Assembly: GCA_031082125.1 (NCBI GenBank)
Contig: JAVHLM010000047.1
Coordinates: 593 to 41,947 of the forward strand
Direction: 5' to 3'
DNA length: 41,355 nucleotides
From: Candidatus Eremiobacterota bacterium
Lineage (GTDB): Bacteria > Vulcanimicrobiota > CADAWZ01 > Ess09-12
This document shows, in pieces, positions 781 through 36,430 of the stretch (its first letter is position 1; the number at the start of each line of letters is the position of its first letter). A program made the position numbers and the translations under genes. The notes beneath the pieces were generated by a model. The model made no database searches. It had not been told where the DNA came from and was given only the letters and a program-made list of their open reading frames with translations.

Positions 781-1605
781 CTACCTGAACTCAAGCGCAA
801 GTTTAGTGCCAGGCATACCTGCTGTTGCCTGATGCATTCTGTCCCATTTTGCCGCACGAAGCACAGGATTATGAGCACGCATAGGATAACTCACGTTGAT
901 CTGACCATCAGATACGCTCACGGTTCCTTTTCCTCTTATGAAATGGAGATATATTGTCCTGGCATCGCAATGCTTAAAGCCACGTAATCTTGACGCCAGA
1001 ATTGAGTAAAGTGTATCCACGATCATCGTCATCACCACGTCGAAATGAACTTTGATAAGGATAGGAGATGACAGTGAATTAAGATGAAAGAACTATACCG
1101 CCTCAGCAATGCCGTTCTCAACCCTCCAGCGGCGTCTGTAATTCCCGATCACTAGCTCTACAGGGCTTTCAAAATTGTTGGTGATGAGAAAGGCCGGCTT
1201 TTCATTGCCATTGCCAAGAACCACCAACTGGCGCAGCATTCCATCATAGCCTCGAAGCTCAACGATAGACTCATGGACCTCTGGATTCGGATATTTCCGC
1301 TTCGCATGGGGGATATGGACTCTCTCCCAGGGAGCCATCTTTTCAATGTCCTGCAGTATGCCTTTACCCCTTCGACGAAGCGTGATAAACTTTACACCCT
1401 GTGCATTTAATGCAGAAAGATTGCCATATGTCGTGAACTTTGAATCAAAGACAAAGGTGGGCTTCACGCCTCGCTGTACGCCCTTCCAGAAAGAGAGAAA
1501 GGAGAGCGCCTGGTCATTCGCTTCGTCTTGCTTGATATCTGCAGCGGTATAAAGAAGAAGCCTGGAATCGGCATCCTGCGCGAAAAGCGTAAGAGCGCTT
1601 TTCAT
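781..1605 (-). pseudogene. Broken DDE transposase (IS4/IS1634-like), C-terminal part
   Basis: Two minus-strand segments, 1605-1093 and 1038-781, lie in the same frame separated by an in-frame stop at about 1093. Together they read as the catalytic and C-terminal part of a DDE transposase. Recognisable pieces are a TFVFDSKFTTYGNL block with its catalytic-type Asp, a FITLRRRG block, and the YRRRWRVENGIAEA block with the Tyr/Arg/Glu signature of the YREK type. The expected N-terminus is missing; the reading frame ends at the inverted repeat of the neighbouring IS66-like element at 1619. Family placement (IS4 superfamily, IS1634-like) is by pattern only. It is not expected to be active. Confidence 0.75.
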
Positions 1606-1618
1606 CTTCTTTTTTCTT

Positions 1619-1631
1619 GGTAAGTTTTTAG
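1619..1631. repeat. Terminal inverted repeat of the IS66-like element (end distal to the transposase start)
   Basis: GGTAAGTTTTTAG. It is exactly repeated in inverted orientation at 3080-3092. It starts 9 bases beyond the transposase stop at 1628 and partly overlaps it. Confidence 0.8.
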
Positions 1632-3018
1632 TGTCCTGAAGTTGCTGATTCGGGAAATGGCGGTAGTTTCCCTGTTTTGATGTATTCTACAAGATTATCA
1701 TGGAGGGCATCAATAGGATTATGGCCTCGAATTTTCAGTATTCGGTAAATGCTCATCAGCACCGCCTGCATATCGGCGCCCTTTTCGCTCTTGTTCTGTC
1801 CCGAGTTCTTGCGCGTTATCACCGCCGGGCGGATTTCCCAATCCGCCTTGTTATTGTCCGATGCCACGCCTTCATGGTCAAGAAACGTCAGGAGCGCATG
1901 CTGAAAATCCCTGAGCCTCTTCTGAATCCTGCGGCACTCCTTGTCAGCAAAAGACTCTCCGATGAACTCTTTGAGGCAAAGCTCCAGTCTCTCCCTGCGG
2001 GAAGCGAAAGATTCTTCCGCAAGATCTTCATTTTTGTCAAGGCGAACGGCATCTCGCATCCAGCGGGTGAGCTTCTTGCTGAAAGCTTTCCACTCCAGAG
2101 AGGCATTCTTCAGCGATACCTTGGCCAGTTCGCGAAACATATGAACAAAGCATGCCTGGCGGTGTTCCGCAAACTTCCCATAGGCTTACCAGAAGACAGT
2201 GATAAGGACTCCTTTGAATATCTCCTTGAAGAATTCTCTCAGCGCAGGAGATCCTCTCGAGCGATCCACCATATAGTAGACAACACTCTCATTGGTAAAG
2301 CACCAGAGCCAGTTCGTAATCCCATTCACCCTCCAGCCGGTTTCATCGGCATGGAGATGAGTGCCCGCCTGCGCTTCATCGGCAAGCTTTTCATACCATA
2401 CGGCGAGGATTTCGCAGAGCCGCTTCCACATATTCACCAGCCCACCGCCACTCAGCTTGAAATGGAGATGGAAATTCAGAACCTCGCAGATATGAGGGAT
2501 CGTCACTCCAAGACCATAATGAAGCCATGCGATGAAGACCAGAAGGTTCAGGCCGACAGTGGATTTGGGAAGCGCTTCGGCCACGACGCCTTCCACCAGT
2601 TTATTGCATCGCTTGCAGAAACTACTGTGAATGACATATTTTTTGACGTAGGCACGCGTGTCTCGCATGTCCTCTATCAGACGCTCCCGGGTCACCATCG
2701 AAGCGGAGAGCGTATCGCCACAATGGGGACATTGAAACACATATACGTGGGTCGGTTCTCCGTCAATAACAAGAGGAACTTCACGGTGCTCGCCCTTATG
2801 ACCCTTCTTTCTCCCCGGCTTTTTCCGCCCTCTTCGGGGAGAGTTCTCTTTCTTGTAAACCGGGACTGCGCCTGGATGCGTTGTCGCTCTTCAATCTCAC
2901 TCTGAAGGTTCCGTGCAAGCTCAAGAAGCTTGAAAACAATCGCTTCACGGCCTTGCTCATAGATGGCGAGAGCCTCTTGCTCGGTCAGAATACTTCCAAA
3001 GGCGCCACAGGTCAACAT
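1628..3018 (-). pseudogene. IS66 transposase, disrupted by a frameshift and a stop
   Basis: Reading from 3018, the N-terminal coiled-coil-like part (LTEQEALAIYEQGREAIVF) is in one frame. The continuation (HPGAVPVYKKENSPRRGRKK, then GRKKGHKG, then a CPHC/CKRC zinc-finger region) is in another, so a frameshift lies near 2880-2900. The DDE part follows, with LHADETGWRVNG in the usual IS66 position. It is cut by an in-frame TAA at 2186-2188, and the C-terminal segment 2140-1628 resumes in the same frame (AYGKFAEHRQACFVHMFREL). At least two lesions make it non-functional unless they are sequencing errors. Confidence 0.85.
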
Positions 3019-3079
3019 GGAAGTATTATCCTTGAAGAATAGAAAAAATCCTGCTGGTTTCAGAAAAAACTTTAGATGG

Positions 3080-3092
3080 CTAAAAACTTACC
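3080..3092. repeat. Terminal inverted repeat of the IS66-like element (transposase-start end)
   Basis: CTAAAAACTTACC, the exact reverse complement of 1619-1631. Confidence 0.8.
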
Positions 3093-3490
3093 TTCAGAGA
3101 AGTGCCACATTTCTCACACACTTCGGGGTAATGATGCTCTGTTCGGGTATCGTTATTCTGCGGCATAAGCTCTCGATGATGACCGGGGTGGCCCTTCTGC
3201 CCTCCCTTTGGACGACCCGATGGAGGCTTTTGTTGTTTGGGTTGTATCCAGGGCGGATCAGAGGATGGAGGCTTCGACGAATTGGAAGAATTCTCTCCCA
3301 ATCGACTCTTAAGAACCCGGACCTCATCTTTGAAAGCCCGATTCTCAATTTCAAGTTCAGATATACGCTTGATAAGGGTGACGAGAAGATCCTTAACGGC
3401 TGGATGAAGCGTTGCCAATGCTTCCGGTGGAAGCGATTGCAGCAGATCTTCGTTGTGCCCGGACTTTTCCTTCATAGAGAGATATTTCAA
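3093..3490 (-). pseudogene. N-terminal fragment of a second, different IS66 transposase
   Basis: About 132 residues from an ATG at 3490 show the hallmark start of IS66 TnpC: a leucine-rich coiled coil (LIKRISELEIENRAFKDEV), the RLGENSSNSSKPPSSDPPW box, a basic GRPKGGQKGHPGHHR stretch and the first zinc-finger cysteines (CEKCGT). The frame runs into the inverted end of the neighbouring IS66 element at 3092 and stops within it at 3080. The catalytic domain is absent from the window. The protein differs from the transposase inside 1619-3092, so this is a second element truncated by the first or by a deletion between them. Confidence 0.8.
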
Positions 3491-3773: not shown

Positions 3774-3802
3774 TTGATTTTATCAGGGGTATCGATTATA
3801 AT
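3774..3802 (+). promoter_or_regulatory. Sigma-70-type promoter for the Pup-like gene
   Basis: TTGATT at 3774-3779, a 17-nt spacer, and a perfect TATAAT at 3797-3802. Transcription would begin near 3809, only about 20 nt before the start codon at 3832. The ribosome binding site (GGAAGGAGG, about 3816-3824) fits in the short leader. Confidence 0.75.
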
Positions 3803-3831
3803 AGATAGTACGAACGGAAGGAGGAATACCG

Positions 3832-3975
3832 ATGAAACTACAAGATGAAGTCAAGAAGGAAATGCCGGTAGAAAAAGAGGTCGCGCCTCCTGCAATCGAG
3901 AACATCAAGCAGGATGCGATGAAAAAGCCGGAGCAGTATATCAAGGACTACAAGATTCCAGCAGAAGGGGAATAA
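3832..3975 (+). CDS. Pup/UBact-like small protein modifier (47 aa, C-terminal Gly-Glu)
   Basis: A 47-residue ORF with a strong ribosome binding site (AGGAGG, 7-8 nt upstream of ATG) and its own consensus promoter. The protein is highly charged, rich in Lys, Glu and Pro, low in hydrophobics, and free of Cys and Trp. It looks intrinsically disordered, as Pup is. It ends ...YKIPAEGE, so the last residues are Gly-Glu. Pup proteins end in Gly-Gly-Glu, or in Gly-Gly-Gln that is deamidated; the terminal Glu side chain is ligated to substrate lysines. UBact proteins of other phyla also end in Gly-Glu. Here Glu is encoded directly, so no deamidation step would be needed. The next gene, 38 nt downstream, is a PafA-like ligase, the expected partner. 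Identification rests on size, composition, C-terminus and this neighbour; similarity to characterised Pup is low and the penultimate Gly is single. Confidence 0.75.
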   Translation: MKLQDEVKKEMPVEKEVAPPAIENIKQDAMKKPEQYIKDYKIPAEGE

Positions 3976-4013
3976 ACACTCATCTGGGGCCATAGCAGCG
4001 CCCGTCGATTCAT

Positions 4014-5993
4014 GTGAAAAAAAGAATATACGGCTACGAAACAGAATACGGGGTGCTCATCTCGTCCTCAGATGATGATGTCAAGCCGCCTATGAGACTC
4101 CATATATACGATTATATGGAGTTTCTTGTCAGTACCACCGTGAAGGTGCTTTACTCGACGTACCGCAAGAAAGGCATTTTTATCGAGAATGGAGGGCTTT
4201 TCAACTATGAGGCCCTCCATACGCATTTCTTCGAAGGCCTTGTGGAAATGGCAACGCCCGAGTGCGCTACACCGCGGGAGGTGGCCCTCTACCACACGGC
4301 ACAGACGTCGATCCTTTATAACATTGTCCAGGAACTCAACAGGAACATCAAGGATATCGACCCGGCATTCATTGGAAGGATATTCCTCGGGAAGAGCAAC
4401 GAGGACTCAGGGGGGAAGTTCATGGCTTCCCATGAGAATTATCTCGTGGAAGATGACCCGGGTTACCTTTCCAGGCTGCTTCTCCATCTCGTCGTGCCCC
4501 TTTTCTGGCTTGTGCACCTTGTGCTGTTAGCCGTCACCTACCTCCCGCTCATCCTGTTTATTCCCCTTGTGGTCGCTTTGTCAGTCTTCTCCTCCCTGCT
4601 CTCGGCCCTTTGCTCCCCCTTCAAGTTTCTCCACGGCATGGCGAGGGCCCTCAGGTCATTTGTGTTCGATTTTCTTCTCAAGGAAGAGTTTCTTATCAAC
4701 CAGTTCGCGAGGATCCACGGCGATTTCTCCCGTTTCATATTCTCCCCCTGGATCACGGCCTTTACCTGGGCCCTCTCGCCCTTCATTTTCAGGAAGATAA
4801 GGAGGAGCCTCATCTCTTTCCTGGTCACGAGGATCATATACACCGGCACCGGCAAAGTCGAGGCCCAGCCGCCCAGAAAGGACAGGACCGCCGACAACGG
4901 GGGCATCTTCGAGATCTCCCAGCGCGCCCGCGCCATAAAAAGCCTCTGCAGGATTTATTTCGACGACGAGAAGCGCCCCATGATAGATATGCGGGATTTC
5001 TTCCTGGAGCCCCTCAGCGCCCTCAGGCGCGAGAAAAGGCTCCATGTTCTTTTCAGCGACACCAACATGTCTTCCATAGGCCTTTACCTCAAGGCAGGCG
5101 TCACCGGCCTCATTCTGGACATGATAGAAGACGGCGTCACCTTTGACGAGGTGCAGCTCAAAAGCCCTCTTGAGGCGATGAAGACAATCTCTCGGGACCT
5201 TTCCATAAGGGAAAAGGTGCCCCTCAGGAGGGGAGGCTCCATGACGGCCCTGGAGATTCAAAGGATATACCTGGGCAAGGCCAGGGAGTATGTCCACTCC
5301 AGGATTCCCGATGACCACGACGCCAGGGACATCATTGAGAAGTGGGAATATCTGCTGGGATGCCTTGAGATAACGCCGTCGCTTCTTTACAGGAAGGTGG
5401 ACTGGGTAACCAAGAAAGATCTTATCGGGGAAGTGATAAGGGACAGGGCAACTCTTTCCGAGCTTAAGGACGTGGCCCCCTGGTATTCTTACCTGTCCGA
5501 GCGTGGCCTCTTGGCGGGCCACCAGGTCCCCCGGGCCCTTATAAGGAGCGTTCTCAAAGAGAAGAAATACCAGGAGTTTCTCTCTTATCTCACCGAAAAG
5601 CACATGACCTACGAGGATTTCTGGGAGAAGATGACTCTTTACAGCGAAGTGGTGAAGGTGGACCTCAAGTTTCACGAGGTGGACGAGGAAGGCTATTACT
5701 ACCAGCTCCTGCAGTCAAATCTTGTGGACAGCCTCTTCACCCACCAGGAGATAGAGGAAGCGAAGGTGGCCCCTCCCCGCCACACCAGGGCCTTTGTGCG
5801 CGGCACCCTTATCAAGAAGTTCGGCTACAAGCTCAGCCCCCTGGAAAGGGAAATATACATGGAGAAAATCGTCCAGGGGAAGTGCAAGATAGGATGGAAC
5901 AAGTTTTATATAAACTGGCCATGGAAGAAGATTAAGCTCGATGATCCATACAACAATAACATCTCCTCAATAGAGAGAGAGATCAACGAATGA
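4014..5993 (+). CDS. pafA: PafA-like Pup ligase (Pup ligase/Dop family) with membrane-type insertion
   Basis: 659 aa from a GTG at 4014 (an ATG overlaps it out of frame; the ribosome binding site is weak). The family attaches Pup to lysines through a phosphorylated C-terminal Glu. Family blocks appear in order: YGYETEYG (6-13, nucleotide/metal glutamates), ATPEC (80-84), SHENYLV (139-145), TRIIYTGTGKV (272-282), EISQRA (300-305), RLHVLFSDTNMSS (342-354), LDMIEDGV (368-375), VDLKFHEVD (549-557), TRAFVRG (591-597) and a PafA-like tail with LDDPYNN (643-649). No Dop-type loop follows the first block, which favours PafA over depupylase. Usual PafA is about 450-480 aa. The excess is a strongly hydrophobic insertion of about 115 residues between HENYLV and TRIIYTG (core 154-204) and about 50 extra residues before the VDLKFHEVD block. 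The PafA catalytic Asp position (NGxxLYLD) reads NGGLFNYE here, so Glu66 may replace it. Confidence 0.88.
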   Translation: MKKRIYGYETEYGVLISSSDDDVKPPMRLHIYDYMEFLVSTTVKVLYSTYRKKGIFIENGGLFNYEALHTHFFEGLVEMATPECATPREVALYHTAQTSILYNIVQELNRNIKDIDPAFIGRIFLGKSNEDSGGKFMASHENYLVEDDPGYLSRLLLHLVVPLFWLVHLVLLAVTYLPLILFIPLVVALSVFSSLLSALCSPFKFLHGMARALRSFVFDFLLKEEFLINQFARIHGDFSRFIFSPWITAFTWALSPFIFRKIRRSLISFLVTRIIYTGTGKVEAQPPRKDRTADNGGIFEISQRARAIKSLCRIYFDDEKRPMIDMRDFFLEPLSALRREKRLHVLFSDTNMSSIGLYLKAGVTGLILDMIEDGVTFDEVQLKSPLEAMKTISRDLSIREKVPLRRGGSMTALEIQRIYLGKAREYVHSRIPDDHDARDIIEKWEYLLGCLEITPSLLYRKVDWVTKKDLIGEVIRDRATLSELKDVAPWYSYLSERGLLAGHQVPRALIRSVLKEKKYQEFLSYLTEKHMTYEDFWEKMTLYSEVVKVDLKFHEVDEEGYYYQLLQSNLVDSLFTHQEIEEAKVAPPRHTRAFVRGTLIKKFGYKLSPLEREIYMEKIVQGKCKIGWNKFYINWPWKKIKLDDPYNNNISSIEREINE

Positions 5994-7338: not shown

Positions 7339-9930
7339 TCATCGTGACGTTTTGTAGACTGACAGGGGGATATCGACGGTCCCCCCCAGGACCTGGGGGT
7401 GCTGCCGGTCTTTGGTGATTCTGGGCACCATCTCGGTGACATACTTCTCGATCTCATAGAGGGTGACCTTCCCGCTGCCGCCCGGGGAGGCTTTCCCCCC
7501 GAGGCCCGAGAGAAGGGTCTGCGTGAAGACCCCTCCGAGCCTGGGAAACTCGCGGCTGGACTCATCGGCGCGGCATGCGGCGAAAACCGTCACGCCGACC
7601 ATTCCCTCGGCCAGGCTCTCATGAGGCGCAAGCCCCGCGTCGGCCCCGAAAAGTGACGCCGAATGGCACACGTCGGCGATAAGGAGCACATGCTTCGCCT
7701 TCAGATCCATCAGAATTTTCTGAAAATCGCCCCAGACGAGCCCGTCCGCGGGAAGCCCCTCCCGCCTTCCCCCGTGGCACAGGAAGAAAAAGCGCTCCTG
7801 CTCATCGAGGACTCCGTGGCCGGCAAGAAAGAGCACTATGAGATCCCTTTCCGTCGATTCCCTGCCTATCTCCTTCAATGCCTTCAGGATGGCGTGATCC
7901 TTTGCCTGCGAGTCGGTAAGAGCGAGGGACTTCACCGATTCAAATGCAAGGCCCTTCATTCTCCTGAAGAAGGCCTCGATCTCCCGGGCGTCACGGGCGG
8001 CGCACTCGAGATTCAGGTTGCTGTCGCCGTAGTCGCTTATGCCGACTGCAAGCAGGAAGAGCTTCTTCGAAGGCACGGCGAAGGGGTAGAGATAGTGAAT
8101 GACGACGGTCTCGGGGAGGCTTCTCACCTCGTCAGTGCTCACGGCCAGCGCCTCTATCCTGTTAAGGCCGGGCTGCAGCCTGATTTCAGCAGTAAGCTCC
8201 CTTGCTTCCGCGGCGCTGCTCTCATTGATCGCAAAGGTCCCGGCGGGGCGGCCGTTGATGAGGACCACGAGATCCCTGATCCTGCACTTCCCCTTCGCTT
8301 CGAGCTTCAGCGTGATCTGTTCCTTCTCAGACATGCCCTCTGGAGGGGAGATGATCCTGATCTCGGGGGGATCAGGGAGCTTTTGTGCTTTCTGCGGGAG
8401 AGCCCTTCCGCCGAGGATGTCCCTCACGGTACCGGCGCTTCTGCGGGGGCCCCGGTACTGGTCGAGGGTCACGGCGGCTCCCTTGGACTCAAGAAGGATG
8501 GAGCGGGCGCCATAGAGGGATGAGTCAAAATAGAGTCCGGGAGTTACCGAGACCCATTCCCCGTCGCTGAAAGCCACAAGCGTAGTCAGCAGAGCGCCGA
8601 ACACGGAGTCCACGATGGAGAGAGAGCCGTCTTCTCCGCCCAGGACCAGGTATCTTCCCCCCGGGGAGAATTTCATGGCGCCTATGGCCACGCTCCCCCT
8701 GTAGAGGACCCGCGACCTGCTCCTGGAGAGCCCGTCCCAGTATTTTGCCGCCCCGTCGCTCCCCGCCGAGACGAGGTACCTGCCTCCCGGAGAGTAAAGA
8801 AGAGAGCGCACCGCTCCCTCATGCCCTTGAAAACGCTTCAGCACCCTGCGGGAGAATATGTCCCCGATAAGGATCTCGCCCGATTCGTCTCCCGATGCCA
8901 GGATTCTGCTCCTGGTGGAGAAGCAGAGGGAGCGGATTCCGCTCCCATGGGCATAGAGGAGCTCCTGGCTCTCCAGGCCCGGGAAATCAATCGCCGTGAG
9001 GGTGCCGTCCTCGCATCCCGCCAGAAGCGTGCGGTTTTCAGGGGAGAGGGCCAGCGCGGTGAGAGGGCTGTGGGAAAGAAGAGCGGACCTGACAGGCTCC
9101 CCTGAAGCCAGGCTCCATACCTTCACCGTGCCGTCAGTGCAGCCGCAGGCAAGATATTTTCCCTCGCTTGAGAAGCAAAGGCTTCTTACCGGCGAGGAAT
9201 GGGCGAGGACCTTCTCGGAGCCGTCACGGAAAAGGGCGCTCAGGTCACGCAGGATGACAGTGCCGTCGAGGGATCCCGAGGCAAGCCGGGAGCCTCCGGG
9301 GGAAAAGGCCACGGAGGTCACGGAGGCCTTGTGCCCGCTGAAGCCGGCAAGGAGCCTTCCCGATACTGGGCTCCATATGGCCAGACGGCCGTCATCGCTT
9401 CCCGAGACCAGGAACCGTCCCCCGGGGGAGAAGCATATCGCGGTGACGGGCGCGGCGCATCCTTCCTTGATGCGCCATGGCCGTTCCTCCAAAGAAGCAT
9501 CAGGGGCCGTCAGCTCCCCGTAAGGCAGCCCCCCGAAGGGCATCTTCCCTTCATTGTCAGCTTCAAAGGGATAGGCACCCTGAGAGAGAAGGAGAAGGAT
9601 CAACTCCTTGTTGTTGTTCTCTGCCGCGAGGTGGAGAGGCGTCCTGCCCAGGCCATCGTGAGTGTTGACATCGGCCCCCATGTCCAGGAGCAGCCTCACG
9701 CATTCCTCGTTGTTTCGGTATACGGCCAGGTGCAGGGCCGTGCTGCCGTCGCGGTTTTTGGCGTTTATCGCGGCGCCCTTCAAAAGGATCGCCCTGATGA
9801 CATCAGCCCGCCCCTCTTCGGCAGCCCTGTGAAGAGGAGTGCCGGTATCAGCCGCCCAGGCCCCCCCTGCGACAAGACACACTATCAGTAAAAAAAGTGA
9901 CAGACTCTTATATCTGCAATTATGCAACAC
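7339..9930 (-). CDS. Exported ankyrin-WD40-caspase (peptidase C14) protein
   Basis: 863 aa from GTG at 9930, preferred because GAGG lies 9 nt upstream; GTG at 9945 is the alternative. Segments in order: a signal peptide (SLSLFLLIVCLVAGGAWA); about three ankyrin repeats (about 28-135; TPLHRAAEEG, TALHLAVYRN, TPLHLAAENN); seven WD40-like repeats (about 155-440), enough for one propeller; a beta-rich linker; and a caspase-like C14 domain (about 620-863). The catalytic His is in LAGHG (His705) and the catalytic Cys in IADVCHSA (Cys755). Such proteases cleave after a specific residue and act in signalling or cell death. Having both ankyrin and WD40 sensors plus a signal peptide implies action in the periplasm or outside, which is unusual. 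The secretin-like gene follows by 13 nt. Confidence 0.9.
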   Translation of the reverse strand: MLHNCRYKSLSLFLLIVCLVAGGAWAADTGTPLHRAAEEGRADVIRAILLKGAAINAKNRDGSTALHLAVYRNNEECVRLLLDMGADVNTHDGLGRTPLHLAAENNNKELILLLLSQGAYPFEADNEGKMPFGGLPYGELTAPDASLEERPWRIKEGCAAPVTAICFSPGGRFLVSGSDDGRLAIWSPVSGRLLAGFSGHKASVTSVAFSPGGSRLASGSLDGTVILRDLSALFRDGSEKVLAHSSPVRSLCFSSEGKYLACGCTDGTVKVWSLASGEPVRSALLSHSPLTALALSPENRTLLAGCEDGTLTAIDFPGLESQELLYAHGSGIRSLCFSTRSRILASGDESGEILIGDIFSRRVLKRFQGHEGAVRSLLYSPGGRYLVSAGSDGAAKYWDGLSRSRSRVLYRGSVAIGAMKFSPGGRYLVLGGEDGSLSIVDSVFGALLTTLVAFSDGEWVSVTPGLYFDSSLYGARSILLESKGAAVTLDQYRGPRRSAGTVRDILGGRALPQKAQKLPDPPEIRIISPPEGMSEKEQITLKLEAKGKCRIRDLVVLINGRPAGTFAINESSAAEARELTAEIRLQPGLNRIEALAVSTDEVRSLPETVVIHYLYPFAVPSKKLFLLAVGISDYGDSNLNLECAARDAREIEAFFRRMKGLAFESVKSLALTDSQAKDHAILKALKEIGRESTERDLIVLFLAGHGVLDEQERFFFLCHGGRREGLPADGLVWGDFQKILMDLKAKHVLLIADVCHSASLFGADAGLAPHESLAEGMVGVTVFAACRADESSREFPRLGGVFTQTLLSGLGGKASPGGSGKVTLYEIEKYVTEMVPRITKDRQHPQVLGGTVDIPLSVYKTSR

Positions 9931-9945
9931 AGGTGCAGTCCTCAC

Positions 9946-21454: not shown

Positions 21455-23023
21455 ATGGTGATGGCGAGGGCCAAGGTGAAAGAGAAGAATGGGACGGGGG
21501 CTAACCTGGGTTTTGAGGCGACGCTCTGGACGGCGGCGGACAAGATGCGGAATAACTTGGATGCTGCTGAATACAAGCACGTGGTGCTGGGCCTCATTTT
21601 CCTGAAATATATCTCTGATGCTTTCGAAGAAAAGCAGAGAGAGCTTTTGCAGGAAGCTTCACAGGGAGCCGATCCAGAAGATCCCGATGAATACAGGGCT
21701 TATAATGTTTTCTGGGTTCCCAGGGAGGCAAGGTGGGCTGAATTACAGGCCCAAGCGAAACAGCCCGAGATCGGAAAGCTCGTCGATAACGCCATGGTAG
21801 CTATCGAGCGTGATAATCCATCACTCAAAGGGGTGCTTCCCAAGGAATATGCGCGGCCCTCACTTGACAAACAGCGATTGGGTGAGCTTATAGACCTTAT
21901 AGGCACAATCGGTCTTGGCGACAGGGAAAACCGCTCCAAGGACATTCTGGGAAGAGTCTATGAATATTTCCTCTCACAGTTTGCAAGTGCCGAAGGAAAG
22001 AAGGGCGGGCAGTTCTATACCCCCCGCTGCGTGGTGCAGGTGCTCGTCTCGATGCTTGCCCCTTACAAGGGGAGAGTCTATGACCCATGCTGCGGCTCCG
22101 GCGGCATGTTCATTCAGAGCGAAAAGTTCGTGGAGGCCCATGGAGGCAAGATCGGCGACATCAGCATTTACGGCCAGGAATCGAATCCCACCACATGGCG
22201 CCTTGCCAAGATGAACCTTGCCATACGCGGTATTGAAGGGAACCTGGGCGCAGAGCATGCCGACAGCTTTCACCGTGATCTGCACAAGGATCTCAAAGCC
22301 GATTATATTCTCGCCAATCCCCCTTTCAATTCGAGCGACTGGGGAGGCGAGAGGCTCAAGGAAGATGTGCGCTGGAAATATGGCGCCCCACCGGCGGCCA
22401 ATGCCAACTATGCCTGGGTGCAGCATTTCATTCATCACCTGGCGCCCCATGGCATCGCCGGCTTTGTGCTCGCCAACGGAAGCATGTCGAGCAACCAGTC
22501 CGGCGAAGGTGAGATAAGGAAAGCCATCATAGAAGATGATATGGTGGACTGCATGGTGGCTATGCCGGGCCAGCTTTTCTACTCGACGCAGATACCTGTC
22601 TGTCTCTGGTTTCTTGCGCGATCAAAACAGAAAAACCGCTTCCGTGATCGTCGGGGACAGACCCTGTTCATTGATGCCAGGAAGCTTGGCCAGCTCGTGG
22701 ACAGGGTGCACCGTGAGCTTACAGATGAGGATATCGCAAAAATTGCAGGGACCTACCACGCCTGGCGAGGTGACAAGGAAGCAGGAACCTATGAAGATAT
22801 GCCGGGATTCTGCAAGAGCGCCTCGATTGAAGAGATAAGGCAGAATGGCTATGTGCTCACTCCAGGGCGTTATGTAGGTGCCGAAGCGGTGGAAGATGAT
22901 GAAGAGCCATTCGAGGAGAAGATGAAGAGGCTTACAAAAACGCTCGCGAATCAGTTTGCAGAAAGCGAGAGCCTGGAAAGAGCAATAAAGGAGAATCTGA
23001 GAGGGCTTGGTTTATTATTATAG
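21455..23023 (+). CDS. hsdM: Type I restriction-modification DNA methyltransferase subunit HsdM
   Basis: 522 aa from ATG at 21455 (ATG 21461 is an alternative). It methylates adenine in the HsdS-specified target as part of the M2S complex, and is needed for restriction by the full R2M2S complex. The N-terminal helical HsdM domain ([36 protein letters not shown]) is followed by the SAM site DPCCGSGG (210-217) and the catalytic NPPF (288-291, [15 protein letters not shown]), the N6-adenine methylase signature. Length is normal. It is GC-rich, unlike the genes directly after it. The tcmP gene begins 8 nt downstream, separating hsdM from hsdS. Confidence 0.97.
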
Positions 23024-23031
23024 GGGGGAAT

Positions 23032-24150
23032 ATGGTCACTGACAAAGGCTGGTTTGAAAAGCCCACTGAGGAATCTCTAGCGAAAAGAGAGATAGTGACA
23101 AAATACTTCAGTGCCTGGTCAAAAATAATGCTGAGTAAAAGTAAATCAGTTCTTTCCTATGTCGATCTTTTTTCTGGACCGGGAAGATATGAGGACGGCA
23201 CTCCATCGACCCCTCTGTTGATATTGGAAAAAGCAATCAATGATGCCGGTTTACGATCACGTTTAATGATAGCTTTTAACGATGCAGATCCAAATCTATC
23301 AAACTCGTTGGATAATGCAATTAATTCTTTCGAAGGAATAAATACGCTTGCTTACAGGCCAAAGGTGAATAACATCAAGATAGCAGGGGATATCGTAAAA
23401 TCTTTTGAAAAAGCATCAAATCCTACGTTATTCTTTCTTGATCCCTGGGGTTATAAGGGATTAACATTGAAATTGATTGGCTCTGCTGTCAAACAATGGG
23501 GATGTGACTGCATTTTTTTCTTCAATTACAATAGAATAAAGATGGGGATAGCAAACAAGATCGTCCTTGAACATATGAACGAGCTCTTTGGTGAAGAAGG
23601 TATGAGACAGCTCAATAATAGACTGAATTGCAAGGTTAATGCTCAGGAAAAAGAAAATATCATAATGTCTGAGATAACTGATGGATTAAGAAAAATCGGG
23701 GGCAAGTTCATTATATTCTTTTGTTTTAAGAATATTAAGGGAACAAAAACAAGTCACTATATTATTTTTGTCAGTAAAAACAAGATAGCGTATAAAATAA
23801 TGAAAGAAATTATGGCACAGATGAGCACATTGAAAGAGCAGGGAGTAGGCACATTTACTTTCTGTGCGCTTGAGAAGAAACAATTACGCCTATTTGAATA
23901 TTCAAAACCTCTTGATGATTTGAAGGAAACGCTCCTTAAGGATTTATCAGGAAGGTCAATGACGGTGGAAGAAATATTTTATGACCATAGCATAGATACC
24001 CCCTATACACTGAAAAATTATAAAGATGTGTTGAGAACACTTGAGGAAGAAGGCAAGATTAAGATAGTATTACCTAAAGGAAGATTTAAAAGAAAAAAGG
24101 GCACGTTGCCTGATGACTTGATTATAAAATTCCCTGAAAGAGTTGATTAA
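23032..24150 (+). CDS. tcmP: Three-Cys-motif partner protein TcmP
   Basis: 372 aa. The N-terminal part has a Rossmann-type methyltransferase look: FEKPTEESLAKREIVTKYF, then SYVDLFSGPGRYEDG (residues about 42-57, motif I-like) and FFLDPWGYKGL (about 134-144, motif IV-like DPWG). The C-terminal about 80 residues form a winged helix (MTVEEIFYDHSIDTPYTLKNYKDVLRTLEEEGKI). The family is defined by its association with the three-Cys protein, and the next gene here is exactly that partner (the stop TAA is directly followed by ATG). Function is unknown; nucleic-acid modification is a reasonable inference. The gene is much AT-richer than hsdM, consistent with insertion into the operon. Confidence 0.9.
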   Translation: MVTDKGWFEKPTEESLAKREIVTKYFSAWSKIMLSKSKSVLSYVDLFSGPGRYEDGTPSTPLLILEKAINDAGLRSRLMIAFNDADPNLSNSLDNAINSFEGINTLAYRPKVNNIKIAGDIVKSFEKASNPTLFFLDPWGYKGLTLKLIGSAVKQWGCDCIFFFNYNRIKMGIANKIVLEHMNELFGEEGMRQLNNRLNCKVNAQEKENIIMSEITDGLRKIGGKFIIFFCFKNIKGTKTSHYIIFVSKNKIAYKIMKEIMAQMSTLKEQGVGTFTFCALEKKQLRLFEYSKPLDDLKETLLKDLSGRSMTVEEIFYDHSIDTPYTLKNYKDVLRTLEEEGKIKIVLPKGRFKRKKGTLPDDLIIKFPERVD

Positions 24151-24852
24151 ATGGCACACACAAAAATAGAATGGACACAAATGACCTGGAATCCTGTAAC
24201 AGGCTGCACAAAAATCAGTGAAGGATGCAGAAACTGTTATGCAGAGCGCATGGCGAAGCGACTTCATCTGATGGGTCAGAGGAATTATCAGAATGAATTC
24301 AAGATAACGATGCACGAGCATATGCTGAATCTCCCTTATCACTGGAAAAAAACGCAGCATGTATTTGTCAATTCTATGAGCGATCTTTTCCACGAAGATA
24401 TCCCTTATGAATATATTAAGAATGTATTTGCCACTATGGAGAGCACTCCTTGGCATCGCTACCAGCTGCTGACAAAGCGCTCTGAGCGATTGAGCAGACT
24501 GGATTCACAGATCAAATGGCCATCAAATGTCTGGATGGGAGTGAGCGTGGAGAGTGATGCATATTCCTTCAGGATTGACCATTTGAGAAAGACAGGTGCA
24601 TTGCTGAAGTTCATATCCTTTGAACCATTAATAGGGCCAATTGACAATATCGACCTCTCGGGAATAGACTGGGTTATTGTGGGAGGTGAATCAGGTCCTG
24701 GCGCACGCCCTATGGCGAAACAATGGGTAATTAAGATAAGGGATAAATGCGAAGAGATGAGTATCCCATTTTTCTTCAAGCAATGGGGAGGCACACAGAA
24801 GAGCAAGACAGGACGGCTTCTGGAGGGAAAGATATGGGATGAGTACCCGTAG
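24151..24852 (+). CDS. Phage Gp37/Gp68-like DUF5131 protein with a three-cysteine motif
   Basis: 233 aa; ATG at 24151 follows the TcmP stop without a gap. The N-terminus carries KIEWTQMTWNPVTGC...GCRNCYAERMAKRL with Cys19, Cys26 and Cys29 (C-x6-C-x2-C). This is the family signature and probably a metal or iron-sulfur site, perhaps of a radical-SAM-like barrel. Other family blocks are VFVNSMSDLFHEDIP, RYQLLTKRSERL, VWMGVSVES, KFISFEPLIGP, WVIVGGESGPGARP and FFFKQWGG. It forms a two-gene unit with TcmP, seen in phages and mobile DNA. Its substrate is unknown. Confidence 0.93.
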   Translation: MAHTKIEWTQMTWNPVTGCTKISEGCRNCYAERMAKRLHLMGQRNYQNEFKITMHEHMLNLPYHWKKTQHVFVNSMSDLFHEDIPYEYIKNVFATMESTPWHRYQLLTKRSERLSRLDSQIKWPSNVWMGVSVESDAYSFRIDHLRKTGALLKFISFEPLIGPIDNIDLSGIDWVIVGGESGPGARPMAKQWVIKIRDKCEEMSIPFFFKQWGGTQKSKTGRLLEGKIWDEYP

Positions 24853-25015
24853 AGTTTGTGCCACATCGACGGAGCAGGTCAGAAATAAAAGGAGACTTGG
24901 GAAGTGTTCTGTAATGATTAAGGGGCTTTGATATGGGAACATTTGATAATCTTGTGACAAGAAGACAAAATACAAAGAAAAGTCTAGTGTGCAATATTTA
25001 TGATTAGGGTGTAAG

Positions 25016-25606
25016 ATGATTACTCCAAAAAAGAAAGTAACAATGAAGTGTGACGATGCATTTTTTGTCAATACTCAAATTTCCCATGAGAAAATATTTA
25101 CAGTCGGTGATTTCTGGAGATGGGCTTTTTCTGACTTACAGGATAATACTTTGAGGGGAGAGCTCGCAGAATTTATCGTGGCAAAGGCGCTTGGGATTAA
25201 AGTCCATGTAAGGGAGTCCTGGGCAAATTATGATCTTGAGACGGAGGATGGAATTCAAATTGAAGTAAAAGCAGGTGGATTTCTCCAGGCATGGGATCAG
25301 AATAAGCTGTCCAGCCCGGTATTTTCCAGACTTAAAGCGAGATCCTGGAATCCGATAGATGGCTATGATAAGGAGAAATCATACAGGGCTCATGTATATA
25401 TTTTCTGTGTGCAGACAGCAAAAACCCATGAGGAATATAATCCGTTGGATCTTTCACAGTGGGAATTTCGGGTGGTTTCAATGAAGGCTCTTGAAAAGCT
25501 TGATTTCAAGAGCCTTTCATACAGTTCACTTTGTAAGCTCTGTCCGGAGAAAGTTTCTTTTAATGAGTTACGTGAAACTATGTATAGAATAAAAATTGGG
25601 GTTTGA
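25016..25606 (+). CDS. Predicted PD-(D/E)XK nuclease inside the hsd operon
   Basis: 196 aa from ATG at 25016. Around residues 46-90 it shows RGELAEFIVAKALG then NYDLETEDGIQIEVKAGGF, with Glu49, Asp73 and Glu83-x-Lys85 in the spacing of a PD-(D/E)XK nuclease core. The rest has no recognisable domain. It sits between the TcmP module (163-nt gap) and hsdS (48-nt gap). It may be a third component of the TcmP module or a stand-alone nuclease. AT-rich like tcmP. The exact family was not recognised. Confidence 0.65.
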   Translation: MITPKKKVTMKCDDAFFVNTQISHEKIFTVGDFWRWAFSDLQDNTLRGELAEFIVAKALGIKVHVRESWANYDLETEDGIQIEVKAGGFLQAWDQNKLSSPVFSRLKARSWNPIDGYDKEKSYRAHVYIFCVQTAKTHEEYNPLDLSQWEFRVVSMKALEKLDFKSLSYSSLCKLCPEKVSFNELRETMYRIKIGV

Positions 25607-25654
25607 GGAACCTATATTAGACTGTGTTGAAATAGAGTTTTAAGGAGATGTGGA

Positions 25655-26947
25655 ATGAGAGATGAATGGAAAAAGTATAAATTGAGGGATGTTGCTAATA
25701 TTATTGATAGTTTACACAAAACACCTGATTACTCTGAATTCGGATTTCCTATGGTAAGAGTGACTGATATTAAGGAAGGCTTTCTTTCTTTGGAAAATGC
25801 CCTCTATGTCTCAAAGGAAGTTTATGAAGAATTCTCAAAAAAACACATATCTGAAAAAGGTGATATAGTCTTTTCCCGCGTCGGATCATATGGAATAGCA
25901 AGCTATGTGAATACAGATAATAGATTTTGTCTAGGGCAAAATACCGTTTTTATTTTACCTAACATCAATAGACGTTTTTTTTACTATTCACTTATAGCTC
26001 CTTCGACGAAAAAACAAATCGAGCGACTGGTTGTTGGATCAACCCAAAAGACAATTAGCCTAAAAAGCATTGGAGAAATTGAGTTCTACATACCCAATGA
26101 TAATACACAGACTCGCATTGCCTCTATATTCTCCTCATTTGACGATAAGATCGAGCTTAACCGCAAGATGAACGAAACACTGGAGGCAATAGCCCGCGCC
26201 CTTTTTAAGTCATGGTTTGTTGATTTTAATCCTGTGCGGGCGAAGATGGAAGGACGACAACCCGCAGGTATGGATGAGGAGACGACTGCTCTCTTCCCGG
26301 ATTCTTTCGAGGAATCGGAGCTAGGGGAGATTCCGAAAGGGTGGAGAGTGGGTAAACTGAGTGAGATCGGCGAACATATCCGACGTAATGTGCAACCCAA
26401 TAAGATAGAGCCAGAAATACCATATATTGCGCTTGAACATATGCCAAGATTCTGTATTGCTCTGTCTGATTGGGGAAACTCAAATGATTTGGAGAGTAAC
26501 AAGTTTCAATTCAAGAAGGGTGAGATTCTCTTTGGGAAACTCAGGCCATATTTTCATAAGGTTGGCGTTGCGCCGGTGGATGGAATATGTTCCACAGACA
26601 TAGTAGTGATGGCACCGAAATCAGAAAAATGGTTCGGTATATTACTCGGTCATGTTTCAAGCAATGAATTTGTAGAATACACAAATGCTGGTTCTACAGG
26701 TACTAAAATGCCGCGAACCAACTGGAATGATATGGCAAAATTTGAAATTGTGTTACCGCCAGAGAAACTTGCCGGAGTGTTTACCGAAAATATGAAACCG
26801 GCAATTAAACATATCATCCAATCGATTCACGAATCCCGTAACCTCGCCCAGATTCGCGACACGCTCCTGCCGAAGCTCCTGTCGGGGGAGATCCAGGTCA
26901 GGGAAGCGGAGAAGGCAGTGGAGAAGGCAGTGGAGAAGGTGCTTTAA
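25655..26947 (+). CDS. hsdS: Type I restriction-modification specificity subunit HsdS
   Basis: 430 aa with AAGGAG before ATG at 25655. Two target-recognition halves are visible: TRD1 (WKKYKLRDVANIIDSLHKTPDY...GDIVFSRVGSYGIASYV) followed by a conserved helix (RIASIFSSFDDKIELNRKMNETLEAIARALFKSWFVDF), and TRD2 (LGEIPKGWRVGKLSEIGEHI...GEILFGKLRPYFHKVGVAP) ending with a second helix (AQIRDTLLPKLLSGEIQV). It reads two half-sites of the target and holds HsdM and HsdR. The 5' half is AT-richer than the 3' half, suggesting TRD exchange. The C-terminus has a 12-bp repeat (GAGAAGGCAGTG twice, about 26909-26932) encoding EKAVEKAVEK. Confidence 0.97.
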   Translation: MRDEWKKYKLRDVANIIDSLHKTPDYSEFGFPMVRVTDIKEGFLSLENALYVSKEVYEEFSKKHISEKGDIVFSRVGSYGIASYVNTDNRFCLGQNTVFILPNINRRFFYYSLIAPSTKKQIERLVVGSTQKTISLKSIGEIEFYIPNDNTQTRIASIFSSFDDKIELNRKMNETLEAIARALFKSWFVDFNPVRAKMEGRQPAGMDEETTALFPDSFEESELGEIPKGWRVGKLSEIGEHIRRNVQPNKIEPEIPYIALEHMPRFCIALSDWGNSNDLESNKFQFKKGEILFGKLRPYFHKVGVAPVDGICSTDIVVMAPKSEKWFGILLGHVSSNEFVEYTNAGSTGTKMPRTNWNDMAKFEIVLPPEKLAGVFTENMKPAIKHIIQSIHESRNLAQIRDTLLPKLLSGEIQVREAEKAVEKAVEKVL

Positions 26948-26974
26948 GAATAGACAAAAGGGGGAGGTCTTTCT

Positions 26975-27343
26975 ATGGAACTGTCTGACAGCGCACACCT
27001 GCAGGGGATACGCGGGCTTTTGTCCGAGATTGTTGAGAACTATCAGGCAATTATCGGAGACAGGCTCTATGAGTTAATTTTGTTCGGCTCCTATGCGAAG
27101 GGCTGCCAGGAAAAATACTCTGATCTCGATATTCTGGCGCTGGTAAACGACACAGAAGAGCAAATCAGAAAATATGACAAGAAACTTGAGGACATCAATC
27201 ACGACCTTACTCTGCGCCATGAGATTCTGATCTCATGCATAATCACAAGATCCTCGCTGTTCAATGAATATAAAGATGCTCTTCCTTTTTACATGAATGT
27301 TGAGAAAGAAGGGATTCTGATCTATGAGCGATCCGCTGCTTAA
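26975..27343 (+). CDS. mntA: MNT-type nucleotidyltransferase (antitoxin MntA)
   Basis: 122 aa. The minimal nucleotidyltransferase motif GSYAKG(x7)D-x-D is clear: Gly38-Ser39, Asp50 and Asp52 in LILFGSYAKGCQEKYSDLDI. In MntA/HepT modules this enzyme inactivates the HEPN toxin by AMPylating it. The following HEPN gene overlaps it by 20 nt, the usual order. It starts 27 nt after hsdS on the same strand, so it is likely expressed from the restriction operon. Confidence 0.9.
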   Translation: MELSDSAHLQGIRGLLSEIVENYQAIIGDRLYELILFGSYAKGCQEKYSDLDILALVNDTEEQIRKYDKKLEDINHDLTLRHEILISCIITRSSLFNEYKDALPFYMNVEKEGILIYERSAA

Positions 27344-27734
27344 CCTGGCATTGCATCGATTGGAGAAGGCAAGAGAAGATATTGACTCTTCTGACGCGCT
27401 GCTGAAAATCAGTAAATTTGCGCAATCCATCAATCGCTCCTATTATGCGATGTTTCACGCGACAAGGGCAATTCTTGCCCTCGACAGATTTGACGCTAAA
27501 AAGCATTCTGCAGTTATTTCATTTTTAATTTTCAACTATGTAAAGGCCGGAAAAATAAGTGAAGGATTCAGTAAAATGCTTACCACCGCAGAGAAGATAA
27601 GAATCAACAGTGACTATGATGATTTCTATATCGCTGATAAAGAAACGGCGGAAGAACAGTTGAGCAACGCCAGAAGCTTTATTGAAATGGCAGAGGCGAT
27701 TATTGATGAAAAAAGGAAACGCCTGAATGGATAA
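27324..27734 (+). CDS. hepT: HEPN-domain ribonuclease toxin (HepT-like)
   Basis: 136 aa. An all-helical HEPN domain with RSYYAMFHATRA (Arg38-x6-His45), the family's RNase signature region. The adjacent Tyr residues are the kind of site modified by the partner nucleotidyltransferase in characterised pairs, though the canonical RX4HXY of HepT is not exact here. ATG at 27324 lies inside mntA, implying coupled translation. The predicted role is RNA cleavage when the antitoxin is lost or a phage infects. Confidence 0.88.
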   Translation: MSDPLLNLALHRLEKAREDIDSSDALLKISKFAQSINRSYYAMFHATRAILALDRFDAKKHSAVISFLIFNYVKAGKISEGFSKMLTTAEKIRINSDYDDFYIADKETAEEQLSNARSFIEMAEAIIDEKRKRLNG

Positions 27735-27948
27735 GACAGAGAAACGTGGATATAAGCAACTGTCCGGAAATAATGAATCCTCATCACAAGATCTGGAGGC
27801 TGCTGAACGGGCAGAGGATCAAGAGGACCTCAGGATGCTTGAAGAGATGAGGAAGAAAAAGCTTCATTTCAAGAAGCTGGATACCTTTCTGGGGGGATTA
27901 AAAACAATGCCTGAGGTATATCACCGGCATAGCGGAAAAGAGACCTGA
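27727..27948 (+). CDS. Small charged protein downstream of the HEPN toxin (73 aa)
   Basis: ATG at 27727 overlaps the HEPN stop by 8 nt (ATGGATAA), suggesting translational coupling. The protein is very hydrophilic, with an acidic helical middle (DLEAAERAEDQEDLRMLEEMRKKK) and a basic tail. No known domain was recognised. It could be an accessory factor of the MNT/HEPN pair or belong to the AAA/PIN pair, which starts 52 nt downstream. Short length makes it less certain. Confidence 0.5.
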   Translation: MDKTEKRGYKQLSGNNESSSQDLEAAERAEDQEDLRMLEEMRKKKLHFKKLDTFLGGLKTMPEVYHRHSGKET

Positions 27949-28000
27949 AATAGCTTGTGATTACCGCACCAAAAATGAATATTGAGGATGGAGCTTTATC

Positions 28001-29251
28001 ATGATCAAGCAAATTGAATTTGAAAACTGGAAAAGTTTCTCTCAATCCACCTTATACGTAGATCCGCTCACTGTTTTGATCGGCACAAACTCAAGCGGTA
28101 AATCCAATGCTCTCGACGGCTTCCAATTTCTTCTTCGCATCACGCAGGGAAAAGAAATCAAAGCATCGCTTGCAGGTGAGACACTTCTTACTCCTATCAG
28201 GGGTGGTGTTGAATGGGCCTCACTCAGACCTCATAATCGTTTTACCGTAAAGGCAATGATTGGTGGAGACACAGAACAGACAGATTATTCCTATACAATT
28301 ACTGTTGAAACGCATCCTGAAGTCCAACTTGCAGCCGAGTCTCTTACAAGAATAAAGTACAGACCAAGGACTAAGACAACCCCCTATGAGCTTACTCTCT
28401 TCAAGACGGATCCCGTGCGGCATGAGGGCCCCGCAATTATCGCCAGGCTCTATAATGAAAAGAGAGGAGCTCCACGGGAAGTCAGCAGGCAGAGAGCGGT
28501 AATCAATCAGATTGGCGCCTATCCATTGAGAAAAGAGATCACTGAAGGAATAAAAGCGGTATCTCAGGCGTTACAGAATATTTTCATACTTGATCCGATT
28601 CCTTTCAATATGAGGAATTATTCTCCTTTATCGGAAACATTGCAAAGCGATGCATCGAATATCGCGGGAGTGCTTGCAGCTCTGACGGATAGTGAAAAAA
28701 ATAGAATAGAAGCGACACTCACTGACTATGCCAGGCATTTGCCAGAGAGAGACATCAGGAGAGTATGGTCGGAAAAGGTGGGGAGATTTGAAAGCGATGC
28801 CATGCTGTACTGCGAAGAAGAATGGGTTTCCAATAAAGAAACGGTTACAATTGATGCAAGGGGAATGTCTGATGGCACGCTTCGGTTCCTTGCAATAGTC
28901 ACTGCATTACTCACAAGGCCAAAAGGAAGCCAGCTTATAATTGAAGAGATCGATAATGGCCTCCATCCCTCAAGGTCTGATATTCTTCTCAAGATGCTCA
29001 GAGAAATCGGAGCAGAGAGATCGATAGATGTACTTGTCACCACACATAATCCTGCATTGCTTGACGCTCTCAGCCCTGCGATGATGCCATATGTGCTCAT
29101 CGCTCATAGGGATCCAAAAAGTGGATTCAGTATGCTTACCCCACTTGAAGATATCAGTGATCTTCCCAAGCTCTTTGCACGAGGCTCTCTAGGAAAACTG
29201 ATAGCTGATGGCTCCCTGGAGAAAAGCCTTACAAGGGAGGCTGCACGATGA
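28001..29251 (+). CDS. AAA-family ATPase (OLD/RecF-like SMC fold), partner of a PIN protein
   Basis: 416 aa from ATG at 28001 with GGAG upstream. Walker A is GTNSSGKSN (28-36), preceded by IKQIEFENWKSFSQSTLYVDPLTVLIG, the start typical of AAA_21/OLD-like ATPases. The ABC-type signature is in SDGTLRFLAIVTALL, Walker B is QLIIEEIDNGLHP, and the switch is VLVTTHNPALLDAL. No TOPRIM nuclease domain follows, so it is not an OLD nuclease by itself. The stop overlaps the start of the PIN gene (ATGA), so nuclease activity may be supplied by that partner. Related ATPases act as sensors in Septu, Gabija and retron systems. Confidence 0.88.
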   Translation: MIKQIEFENWKSFSQSTLYVDPLTVLIGTNSSGKSNALDGFQFLLRITQGKEIKASLAGETLLTPIRGGVEWASLRPHNRFTVKAMIGGDTEQTDYSYTITVETHPEVQLAAESLTRIKYRPRTKTTPYELTLFKTDPVRHEGPAIIARLYNEKRGAPREVSRQRAVINQIGAYPLRKEITEGIKAVSQALQNIFILDPIPFNMRNYSPLSETLQSDASNIAGVLAALTDSEKNRIEATLTDYARHLPERDIRRVWSEKVGRFESDAMLYCEEEWVSNKETVTIDARGMSDGTLRFLAIVTALLTRPKGSQLIIEEIDNGLHPSRSDILLKMLREIGAERSIDVLVTTHNPALLDALSPAMMPYVLIAHRDPKSGFSMLTPLEDISDLPKLFARGSLGKLIADGSLEKSLTREAAR

Positions 29252-29760
29252 GAAAAGTGATTGTCCTTGACACTTCTGTGATGTGTGCCTTTCTTGAGGT
29301 TCCGGGCAAGGAGACATGTATGAACGGAGATCTGAGATGGGACAGAGATCGTGTTGAAGAATATCTAAAAAGTGAGGAGCAAGAGGGCACCACTCTGGTT
29401 CTTCCTATTGCAACAATTATCGAGACCGGTAATCATATAGCACAGGCACCTTCTCAAAGATACGAAAAGGCAAAAAGCCTTGTTGAATTACTTGAAAAAG
29501 CAGTAGATGAAGAGACTCCCTGGGCTGCATTTACTGAGCAGAAAAACCTTTGGACGGAGAAGAGCCTCAGAAAGCTCATCAATGAGTGGCCTGAGCTGGC
29601 TTCAAGTAGATTATCAATGGGTGATGCCACAATAAAAGATGTAGCGGAGTTCTATGCCCAGATGGGATATAGAGTGGAGATTTTCACCGGTGATCAGGGC
29701 TTGAAGGGTTATGAGACGCCCATCCCTCCGTCAATACCCAGGAGAAGAAGAAATGCATGA
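29248..29760 (+). CDS. PIN-domain-like nuclease coupled to the AAA ATPase
   Basis: 170 aa; ATG at 29248 overlaps the ATPase stop by 4 nt. Acidic residues of a PIN-type active site are in the expected order: Asp8 (VIVLDTSVM), Glu59 ([10 protein letters not shown]), Asp in SMGDATIKD and Asp in FTGDQGL. PIN domains cut RNA, or DNA in some systems. The C-terminus is basic (PRRRRNA), suggesting nucleic-acid binding. The gene in turn overlaps hsdR by 4 nt. Pairing with a large ATPase instead of a small antitoxin argues for a defence effector rather than a VapC toxin. Confidence 0.82.
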
Positions 29761-32700: not shown

Positions 32701-32900
32701 CTATTGCGCGTGACCTTGTGGAGGCGATGCGCGGCTCGGTGACTATTGACTGGACTGTGCGGGAGAATGTGAGAGCACAGATCAGGGTGAGAGTGAGAAG
32801 GATACTGAGGAAGCACGGCTATCCGCCTGACAAGCAGGAGAAAGCGACGCAGACGGTGCTGGAACAGGCGGAGTTGCTGTGCAAGGATTGGGTGGGGTAG
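29757..32900 (+). CDS. hsdR: Type I restriction endonuclease subunit HsdR
   Basis: 1047 aa, a normal length. ATG at 29757 overlaps the PIN gene stop by 4 nt. The N-terminal nuclease domain has [22 protein letters not shown], the D...E-x-K core. The superfamily 2 translocase follows, with Walker [15 protein letters not shown] as [11 protein letters not shown], motif [13 protein letters not shown], and later motifs ([35 protein letters not shown]). The C-terminal helical part binds the methylase. Together with HsdM and HsdS it makes the translocating restriction complex that cleaves unmethylated DNA far from the target. GC-rich and host-like, in contrast to the guest genes between it and hsdS. 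Confidence 0.97.
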
Positions 32901-32922
32901 TATCTTGAAATGTGAGGTTTAA

Positions 32923-36313: not shown

Positions 36314-36332
36314 GGTATGGTGGTTAGGTATA

Positions 36333-36356
36333 CTGTGTAGTATATATACTACACAG
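36333..36356. promoter_or_regulatory. 24-bp perfect palindrome upstream of the AbiEi-like gene
   Basis: Half-site CTGTGTAGTATA followed by its exact reverse complement. It lies 20 nt before the chosen start codon of the AbiEi-like gene, where an autoregulatory operator would be. Confidence 0.7.
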
Positions 36357-36430
36357 CTTTCCAATTAAAAATATTCTCGAAATATTGTTAGCAAAAGCAT
36401 TTTAGCAAATTTTCTGCGTTTAATTTAAAA

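Follow-up and report, generated by a model that had tools for sequence, protein, structure and literature searches.

Modifier and ligase genes at the locus

The window, defined here as the whole stretch of DNA analysed (41,355 nucleotides), corresponds to positions 593-41947 of contig 47 in a 7.43 Mb genome assembly comprising 69 contigs and estimated to be 97.6% complete. Two adjacent genes on the forward strand are the subject of this analysis. The upstream gene (3832-3975, +) encodes a putative protein modifier of 47 amino acids that contains no cysteines and ends in ...PEQYIKDYKIPAEGE before a TAA stop codon, with the tail KPEQYIKDYKIPAEGE. After a gap of 38 nt it is followed by a gene with a GTG start (4014-5993, +) encoding a 659-amino acid enzyme of the Pup-ligase family (Pfam Pup_ligase, PF03136). 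The small open reading frame (ORF) with the ending ...AEGE and its distance from the ligase gene are as given in a preliminary description of this DNA, which also proposed a consensus promoter and a strong ribosome binding site. The latter was confirmed, as a Shine-Dalgarno sequence, AAGGAGGA (3818-3825, +), can be read directly 6 nt 5' of the modifier ATG. The promoter-like element (TTGATT-17 nt-TATAAT; 3774-3802, +) agrees with the consensus at 10 of 12 positions; since four such sites were found in the region compared to 1.8 +/- 1.3 in shuffled sequences, it is regarded as a consensus match and no more.

Ligase fold, predicted membrane insert and active site

The window ligase scored 280.5 bits against PF03136 (cut-off 25) and fell under the cut-offs of the equivalog models for both PafA (TIGR03686, 216.7 bits, cut-off 551.3) and Dop (TIGR03688, 200.5 bits, cut-off 492.3). 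Single-sequence comparison gave 144.7 bits for Dop structures and about 91 bits for PafA. An AlphaFold model of the enzyme (mean pLDDT 79) had Dop 4b0r as its best Foldseek match (E 1.4e-28, target TM-score 0.81), with the PafA-Pup complex 4bjr at E 1.4e-26. The insert known as the Dop-loop is absent from the window ligase.

An insert of approximately 114 residues (4449-4790, +) follows the strand-4 motif H140-E-N142 (4431-4439, +; H140 aligns with Dop H155) at a place where PafA and Dop have six residues. Residues 152-203 of the ligase (4467-4622, +) form a hydrophobic stretch within this insert and are predicted to be a transmembrane helical hairpin (with a hydropathy maximum of 2.73 and a modelled helix at 150-199), a topology suggested by hydropathy and by a model computed without a membrane. 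Inserts of 95-134 amino acids were aligned after the HEN motif in all 29 ligases of this kind, hereafter membrane-type ligases, and in none of 16 PafA and Dop sequences; the same 29/29 versus 0/16 split was observed for a hydrophobic stretch of 41-60 residues inside the insert. The hydropathy profile of the window ligase contains one stretch of about 50 residues (two helices), and a second stretch is present in some myxobacterial members.

In phylogenetic trees, PafA and Dop together were split from the membrane-type ligases at 100/100. When myxobacterial rows were included, the window ligase lay outside the PafA clade (100/97) and outside the Dop clade. Thus, the PafA-like ligase of the preliminary description is retained as a member of the Pup-ligase family, but judged by its placement and score it is not PafA proper. 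Since the root of the tree is not known, the membrane-type ligases may represent one clade or a basal grade. The ligase of genome G015 grouped with the other three in the first tree and with the myxobacterial ones once those rows were added, a shift that leaves the branching among membrane-type ligases unsettled. Single-copy planctomycete homologues served as outgroup to PafA and Dop in a 2020 study (PMC7947786).

Active-site residues were compared with those of Dop, in which Glu8, Glu10, Tyr92, Glu99, His155, and His241 bind Mg and Asp94 is the presumed activator of the attacking group (PMC8599861). The window ligase retains the equivalents of E8, E10, E99, H155, and H241, as well as that of Arg227, while Asn occupies the Tyr92 position. 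E9 and E11 of the GxExE motif (4038-4046, +), which align with the Mg/ATP ligands E8 and E10 of Dop, are invariant in 45/45 aligned family members. E66 (4209-4211, +) aligns with the catalytic Asp of PafA and Dop (Dop D94), the last residue of the NG..xYxD strand; at a constant spacing from the conserved Asn-Gly, 29/29 membrane-type ligases have Glu, compared to Asp in 16/16 PafA and Dop. The DEPHAD motif of PafA and Dop is not kept, and this loss together with the replacement of the catalytic Asp suggests that the acceptor may differ. Neither the membrane-spanning insert nor the Asp-to-Glu change had been recognised in the preliminary description.

Conservation of the gene pair

Two PF03136 genes were found in the source genome, each at a modifier-ligase pair. 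The second pair (L006:10614-13094, contig 1) includes a modifier ORF of 57 amino acids with the tail CPEKYVNDFKIPAEGE and lies in surroundings unrelated to those of the window pair. Its ligase (761 amino acids) is 45% identical to the window ligase across most of its length and, besides the shared hairpin, contains a further hydrophobic insert nearer the N-terminus (residues 132-181). Ligase homologues were detected in two of 57 other genomes in a search of relatives, G007 and G015, which represent two other families of the phylum; a profile search of 149 genomes of the phylum yielded no ligases beyond these. In both genomes an ORF ending Gly-Glu-stop lies directly 5' of the ligase, with the tails ...EALKYVKNWKAPGGGE (G007) and ...AATYVSAWSSHADGE (G015). 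Two TldD/PmbA-type genes, read by eye, are located directly 3' of the G007 pair (L013:8306-11180).

Since an ORF with the same tail precedes the other ligase of the source genome, and ORFs ending Gly-Glu-stop precede ligases in two other families and ten myxobacteria, the small ORF of the window is not a chance occurrence, and by these comparisons the modifier-ligase pair is real and conserved. Conservation of the pair in relatives had been put forward as a check in the preliminary description, which held that a small ORF lacking conservation or a freely varying Gly-Glu would speak against the locus. Neither was observed, as all 15 modifiers end in Gly-Glu; the terminal Glu is encoded directly in each and Gln occurs in none, and 14 of the 15 lie directly 5' of the ligase. 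An ungapped alignment anchored at the C-terminus was constructed for 14 modifiers, the fifteenth (from the myxobacterial genome G436) being kept outside the table. E(-1), G(-2), and Y(-12) are invariant in 14/14, while P(-5) and D(-20) are each present in 13/14; the G436 modifier (...AEKYLRETVVPEGGE) fits the tail pattern. N-termini of the 14 are variable and the tail pattern is conserved without gaps, as would be expected of a tag that is disordered but recognised by its C-terminus.

A search of the modifier against Pup profiles, as the preliminary description had proposed, gave no match to any Pfam or NCBIfam model, those for Pup included (0/14 members), and the window pair was unmatched in PADLOC. 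Profile-profile alignment with hhalign placed the C-terminal 30 positions in register with canonical Pup, a weak match from a single comparison (probability 15%, E 0.0017). Going by this weak alignment, common descent of the modifier with canonical Pup appears likely.

Survey of Myxococcota and other databases

A ligase profile search of 379 Myxococcota genomes recovered 25 membrane-type ligases among many canonical PafA and Dop. Eleven of these constitute group G2 (L057-L066, L070), each being the sole ligase of its genome. A modifier, e.g. PEQYLKDSEVPHGGE, lies directly 5' of the ligase in 10 of the 11; in the eleventh genome (G436) it is unlinked to the ligase and was detected with a profile built from the 14 other modifiers (E 4.5e-12). 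The G2 ligases have Gln, Gly or Pro (His to Gln, Arg to Gly, Arg to Pro) at the positions of Dop His155, His241, and Arg227 and of window R592. As the G2 ligases have thereby lost further active-site residues, the window lineage is catalytically closer to the classical enzymes.

The remaining group, G1 (L043-L056), comprises 14 ligases with no modifier nearby or elsewhere in the genome above noise. Some G1 ligases are preceded by an ORF with an acidic tail such as ELFDSDAFDFSEE. The Mpa/ARC domain (PF16450) was found in 12 of 14 G1 genomes, the two exceptions being assemblies of 1.6-2.0 Mb, and in none of the 11 G2 genomes. Presence of the modifier therefore goes with absence of Mpa/ARC, the known unfoldase. 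If the genomes were independent, which they are not, the modifier split itself (11/11 in G2, 0/14 in G1) would be expected with a probability of 2e-7. G1 ligases may use the canonical Pup of their own genomes, at the membrane. Most of the genomes surveyed are metagenome-assembled, so absences are provisional, and related genomes are not independent of one another.

In 388 Verrucomicrobiota genomes, no membrane-type ligase was detected at E 1e-60; this threshold was chosen so as to leave out canonical members, and the phylum provided no positive control for it. A single-protein search of genome contigs gave no match, and an alignment-based search of the same kind of data returned canonical PafA and Dop loci and the G007 contig. 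Among plasmids, two partial matches were found in two actinomycete records; IMG/VR gave no match, and a phage search gave one, the unannotated record MT835496.1. This record ('Bacteriophage sp.', 159 kb, from faeces) contains a Pup-ligase-family stretch of 31% identity (42477-43091) and may be a mislabelled bacterial contig.

Genomic context and downstream partners

The preliminary description reported no proteasome, Mpa/ARC or Dop in the window, and genome-wide searches extended this to the whole genome. A 20S proteasome was not found in the 97.6% complete assembly, where the PF00227 match is HslV (264 bits for TIGR03692). The Mpa/ARC domain PF16450 was likewise not found in the source genome by a search that detected the ARC of Corynebacterium glutamicum as a positive control. 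The best pup_AAA match, considered as a candidate Mpa, was rejected, being of FtsH type (HEAGH motif) and far under the cut-off. There is no Dop in the genome, as both PF03136 genes are membrane-type. PF16450 is also absent from G007 and G015 and is present in four genomes with canonical Pup-type loci. These searches lend support to the earlier suggestion that the tag may serve something other than the proteasome, with no feeding via Mpa/ARC.

The window pair is flanked by IS66-type transposase remains and a secretin-like gene, and no neighbouring membrane-protein gene is present. Broken transposase remains (an IS66 DDE domain, DUF6444, and another DDE transposase) occupy positions 1093-3490, just 5' of the pair. 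Further downstream, an 868-amino acid protein (7339-9945, -) contains ankyrin repeats and a WD40 propeller, and its C-terminus reads as a caspase-type peptidase. A defence-type block (21455-36364) encodes type I restriction-modification M, S, and R genes, a PDC-M30A-like protein, a nucleotidyltransferase/HEPN-like pair, and AbiEi/AbiEii-like genes. A defence role for the pair was considered in view of this restriction and abortive-infection block, which begins at about 21.4 kb; nothing was found in its support.

Proposed function and alternative readings

The conserved pair, the directly encoded terminal Glu, the ligase family, the retained ATP/Mg residues, the hydrophobic insert, and the absence of downstream partners are together best explained by a membrane-anchored, proteasome-independent system of the pupylation type, and we consider it probable that conjugation via the terminal Glu takes place at the membrane. 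The modifier-plus-ligase interpretation of the preliminary description is accordingly preserved as the best reading, with conjugation as its predicted activity. The 47-amino acid modifier would be made ready for use, and since Glu is already encoded at its C-terminus no deamidase would be needed. The helical hairpin after strand 4 of the glutamine-synthetase-type fold would hold the ligase at the cytoplasmic face of the membrane, where the enzyme would phosphorylate the gamma-carboxylate of the terminal Glu at the expense of ATP. The activated Glu would then be transferred to an amine, for which lysines of proteins in or near the membrane are the most likely candidates. Given that Mpa/ARC, 20S, and Dop are all missing from the genome, the tag would most likely represent a regulatory or sorting mark.

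The same chemistry could lead to a different fate, with conjugates handed to an FtsH-like membrane protease or to HslUV. A short tag whose N-terminus varies and is of low complexity would be suited to starting the unfolding of a protein, the genome has FtsH-type and HslV genes, and characterised Pup-type tags serve AAA+ machines. FtsH and HslV are, however, widespread proteins whose genes are not linked to the pair, an adaptor was not found, and the Myxococcota modifier occurs where Mpa/ARC is missing and hence gives no pointer to a dedicated unfoldase; a proteolysis tag is thus considered unlikely. A different acceptor could also be envisaged. The membrane anchor and the Asp-to-Glu change common to all membrane-type ligases would suit the joining of the modifier to a membrane-lipid amine or other membrane amine instead of protein lysines, in parallel to Atg8 lipidation, a reading to which we give very little weight.

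The group-wide catalytic change could also suit a carrier role, in which a small amine or amino acid, loaded onto the terminal Glu by the glutamine-synthetase-fold enzyme, would be carried along a biosynthetic pathway. LysW, the model for such a role, has a directly encoded terminal Glu after Gly, a cysteine zinc site, and an ATP-grasp partner. The first of these features is shared by the window modifier, but the modifier has no cysteines for a zinc site and the ligase has a glutamine synthetase-type fold, not an ATP-grasp fold. Relatives of the same fold do make small peptides (PMC2588565), yet no biosynthetic genes are common to the window, G007, and contig-1 loci, and it is hard to see what a membrane hairpin would contribute to such a pathway, making a carrier function rather improbable. 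Finally, the large protein might be a Dop-related membrane enzyme whose role is to take the modifier off or recycle it, consistent with the higher single-sequence scores of Dop structures over PafA (144.7 versus about 91 bits) and with a TPE..PR motif that resembles Dop. Against this, the Dop-loop is missing, the protein lies outside the Dop clade, and the NCBIfam models slightly favour PafA (216.7 versus 200.5). Furthermore, deamidation is unnecessary where Glu is encoded, and as the sole kind of family member in the genome a lone hydrolase would have nothing to remove, so that a depupylase-like activity is highly unlikely.

Comparison with known systems

Similar to the Pup-PafA-Dop-Mpa-20S system of Actinobacteria and Nitrospirota, the window system combines a small modifier of the G[EQ]-ending type with a PF03136 ligase of the glutamine-synthetase fold, and a similar helix precedes the modifier tail. 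It differs in lacking Dop, Mpa/ARC, and 20S, in its membrane insert, and in having Glu in place of the catalytic Asp. Furthermore, the modifier tail, mostly [IV]PxxGE, is one residue longer from the aromatic position to the end than in canonical Pup. Pupylation without a 20S proteasome occurs in C. glutamicum, which has ARC and a soluble canonical PafA. The window system would share Pup-type conjugation without 20S, but its genome has neither ARC nor a canonical PafA. UBact-type modifiers of Gram-negative bacteria are also short, end in GE, and lie beside a family member, but their loci come with proteasome-type partners. The modifier of locus L031 (...RRYRQRSGE), a likely UBact example, belongs to a genome with PF16450, and the Y(-12)/P(-5) pattern is missing from the UBact-type tail.

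To our knowledge, every experimentally studied pupylation feeds an AAA+ machine. Recurrence of a tag and ligase without the other partners across distant bacteria, with the ligase predicted to reside in the membrane, makes the role of a Pup-type tag without unfoldase or depupylase testable. Ligases that lie outside the PafA and Dop clades, are accompanied by an encoded Glu, and occur without Dop would also bear on the origin of PafA and Dop, and a membrane-resident, deamidase-free Pup ligase could serve proximity labelling.

The window system belongs to a kind already predicted in 2008, when Iyer, Burroughs and Aravind described Pup ligases of Plesiocystis and Rhodopirellula with four transmembrane segments right after strand 4, noted no linkage to proteasome genes, and proposed that they may modify membrane-associated proteins (PMC2588565). 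Its novelty is accordingly lower than the preliminary description implied. Experimental follow-up of that prediction was not found in the open-access literature, subscription papers being mostly outside the scope of the search. Shared features with the type of Plesiocystis pacifica and Rhodopirellula baltica are the transmembrane insert after strand 4, the adjacent small gene ending in G[EQ], and the absence of proteasome linkage (PMC2588565). These two ligases were compared by their published description, with Myxococcota genomes as proxy: Plesiocystis belongs to Myxococcota, where the same ligase architecture was counted 25 times in the 379 genomes. Unlike the 2008 type, the window system occurs in another phylum, its genome has two diverged pairs, and no gene for a membrane protein adjoins it; its ligase is predicted to have one strong hydrophobic hairpin, compared to the four transmembrane segments reported in 2008. 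The window ligase also keeps the catalytic His and Arg, whereas the modifier-bearing myxobacterial group has Gln, Gly or Pro. As far as can be told, the features added here are a further phylum, one genome with two pairs, a tail common to the modifiers, the Asp-to-Glu signature, and the mutual exclusion of modifier and Mpa/ARC.
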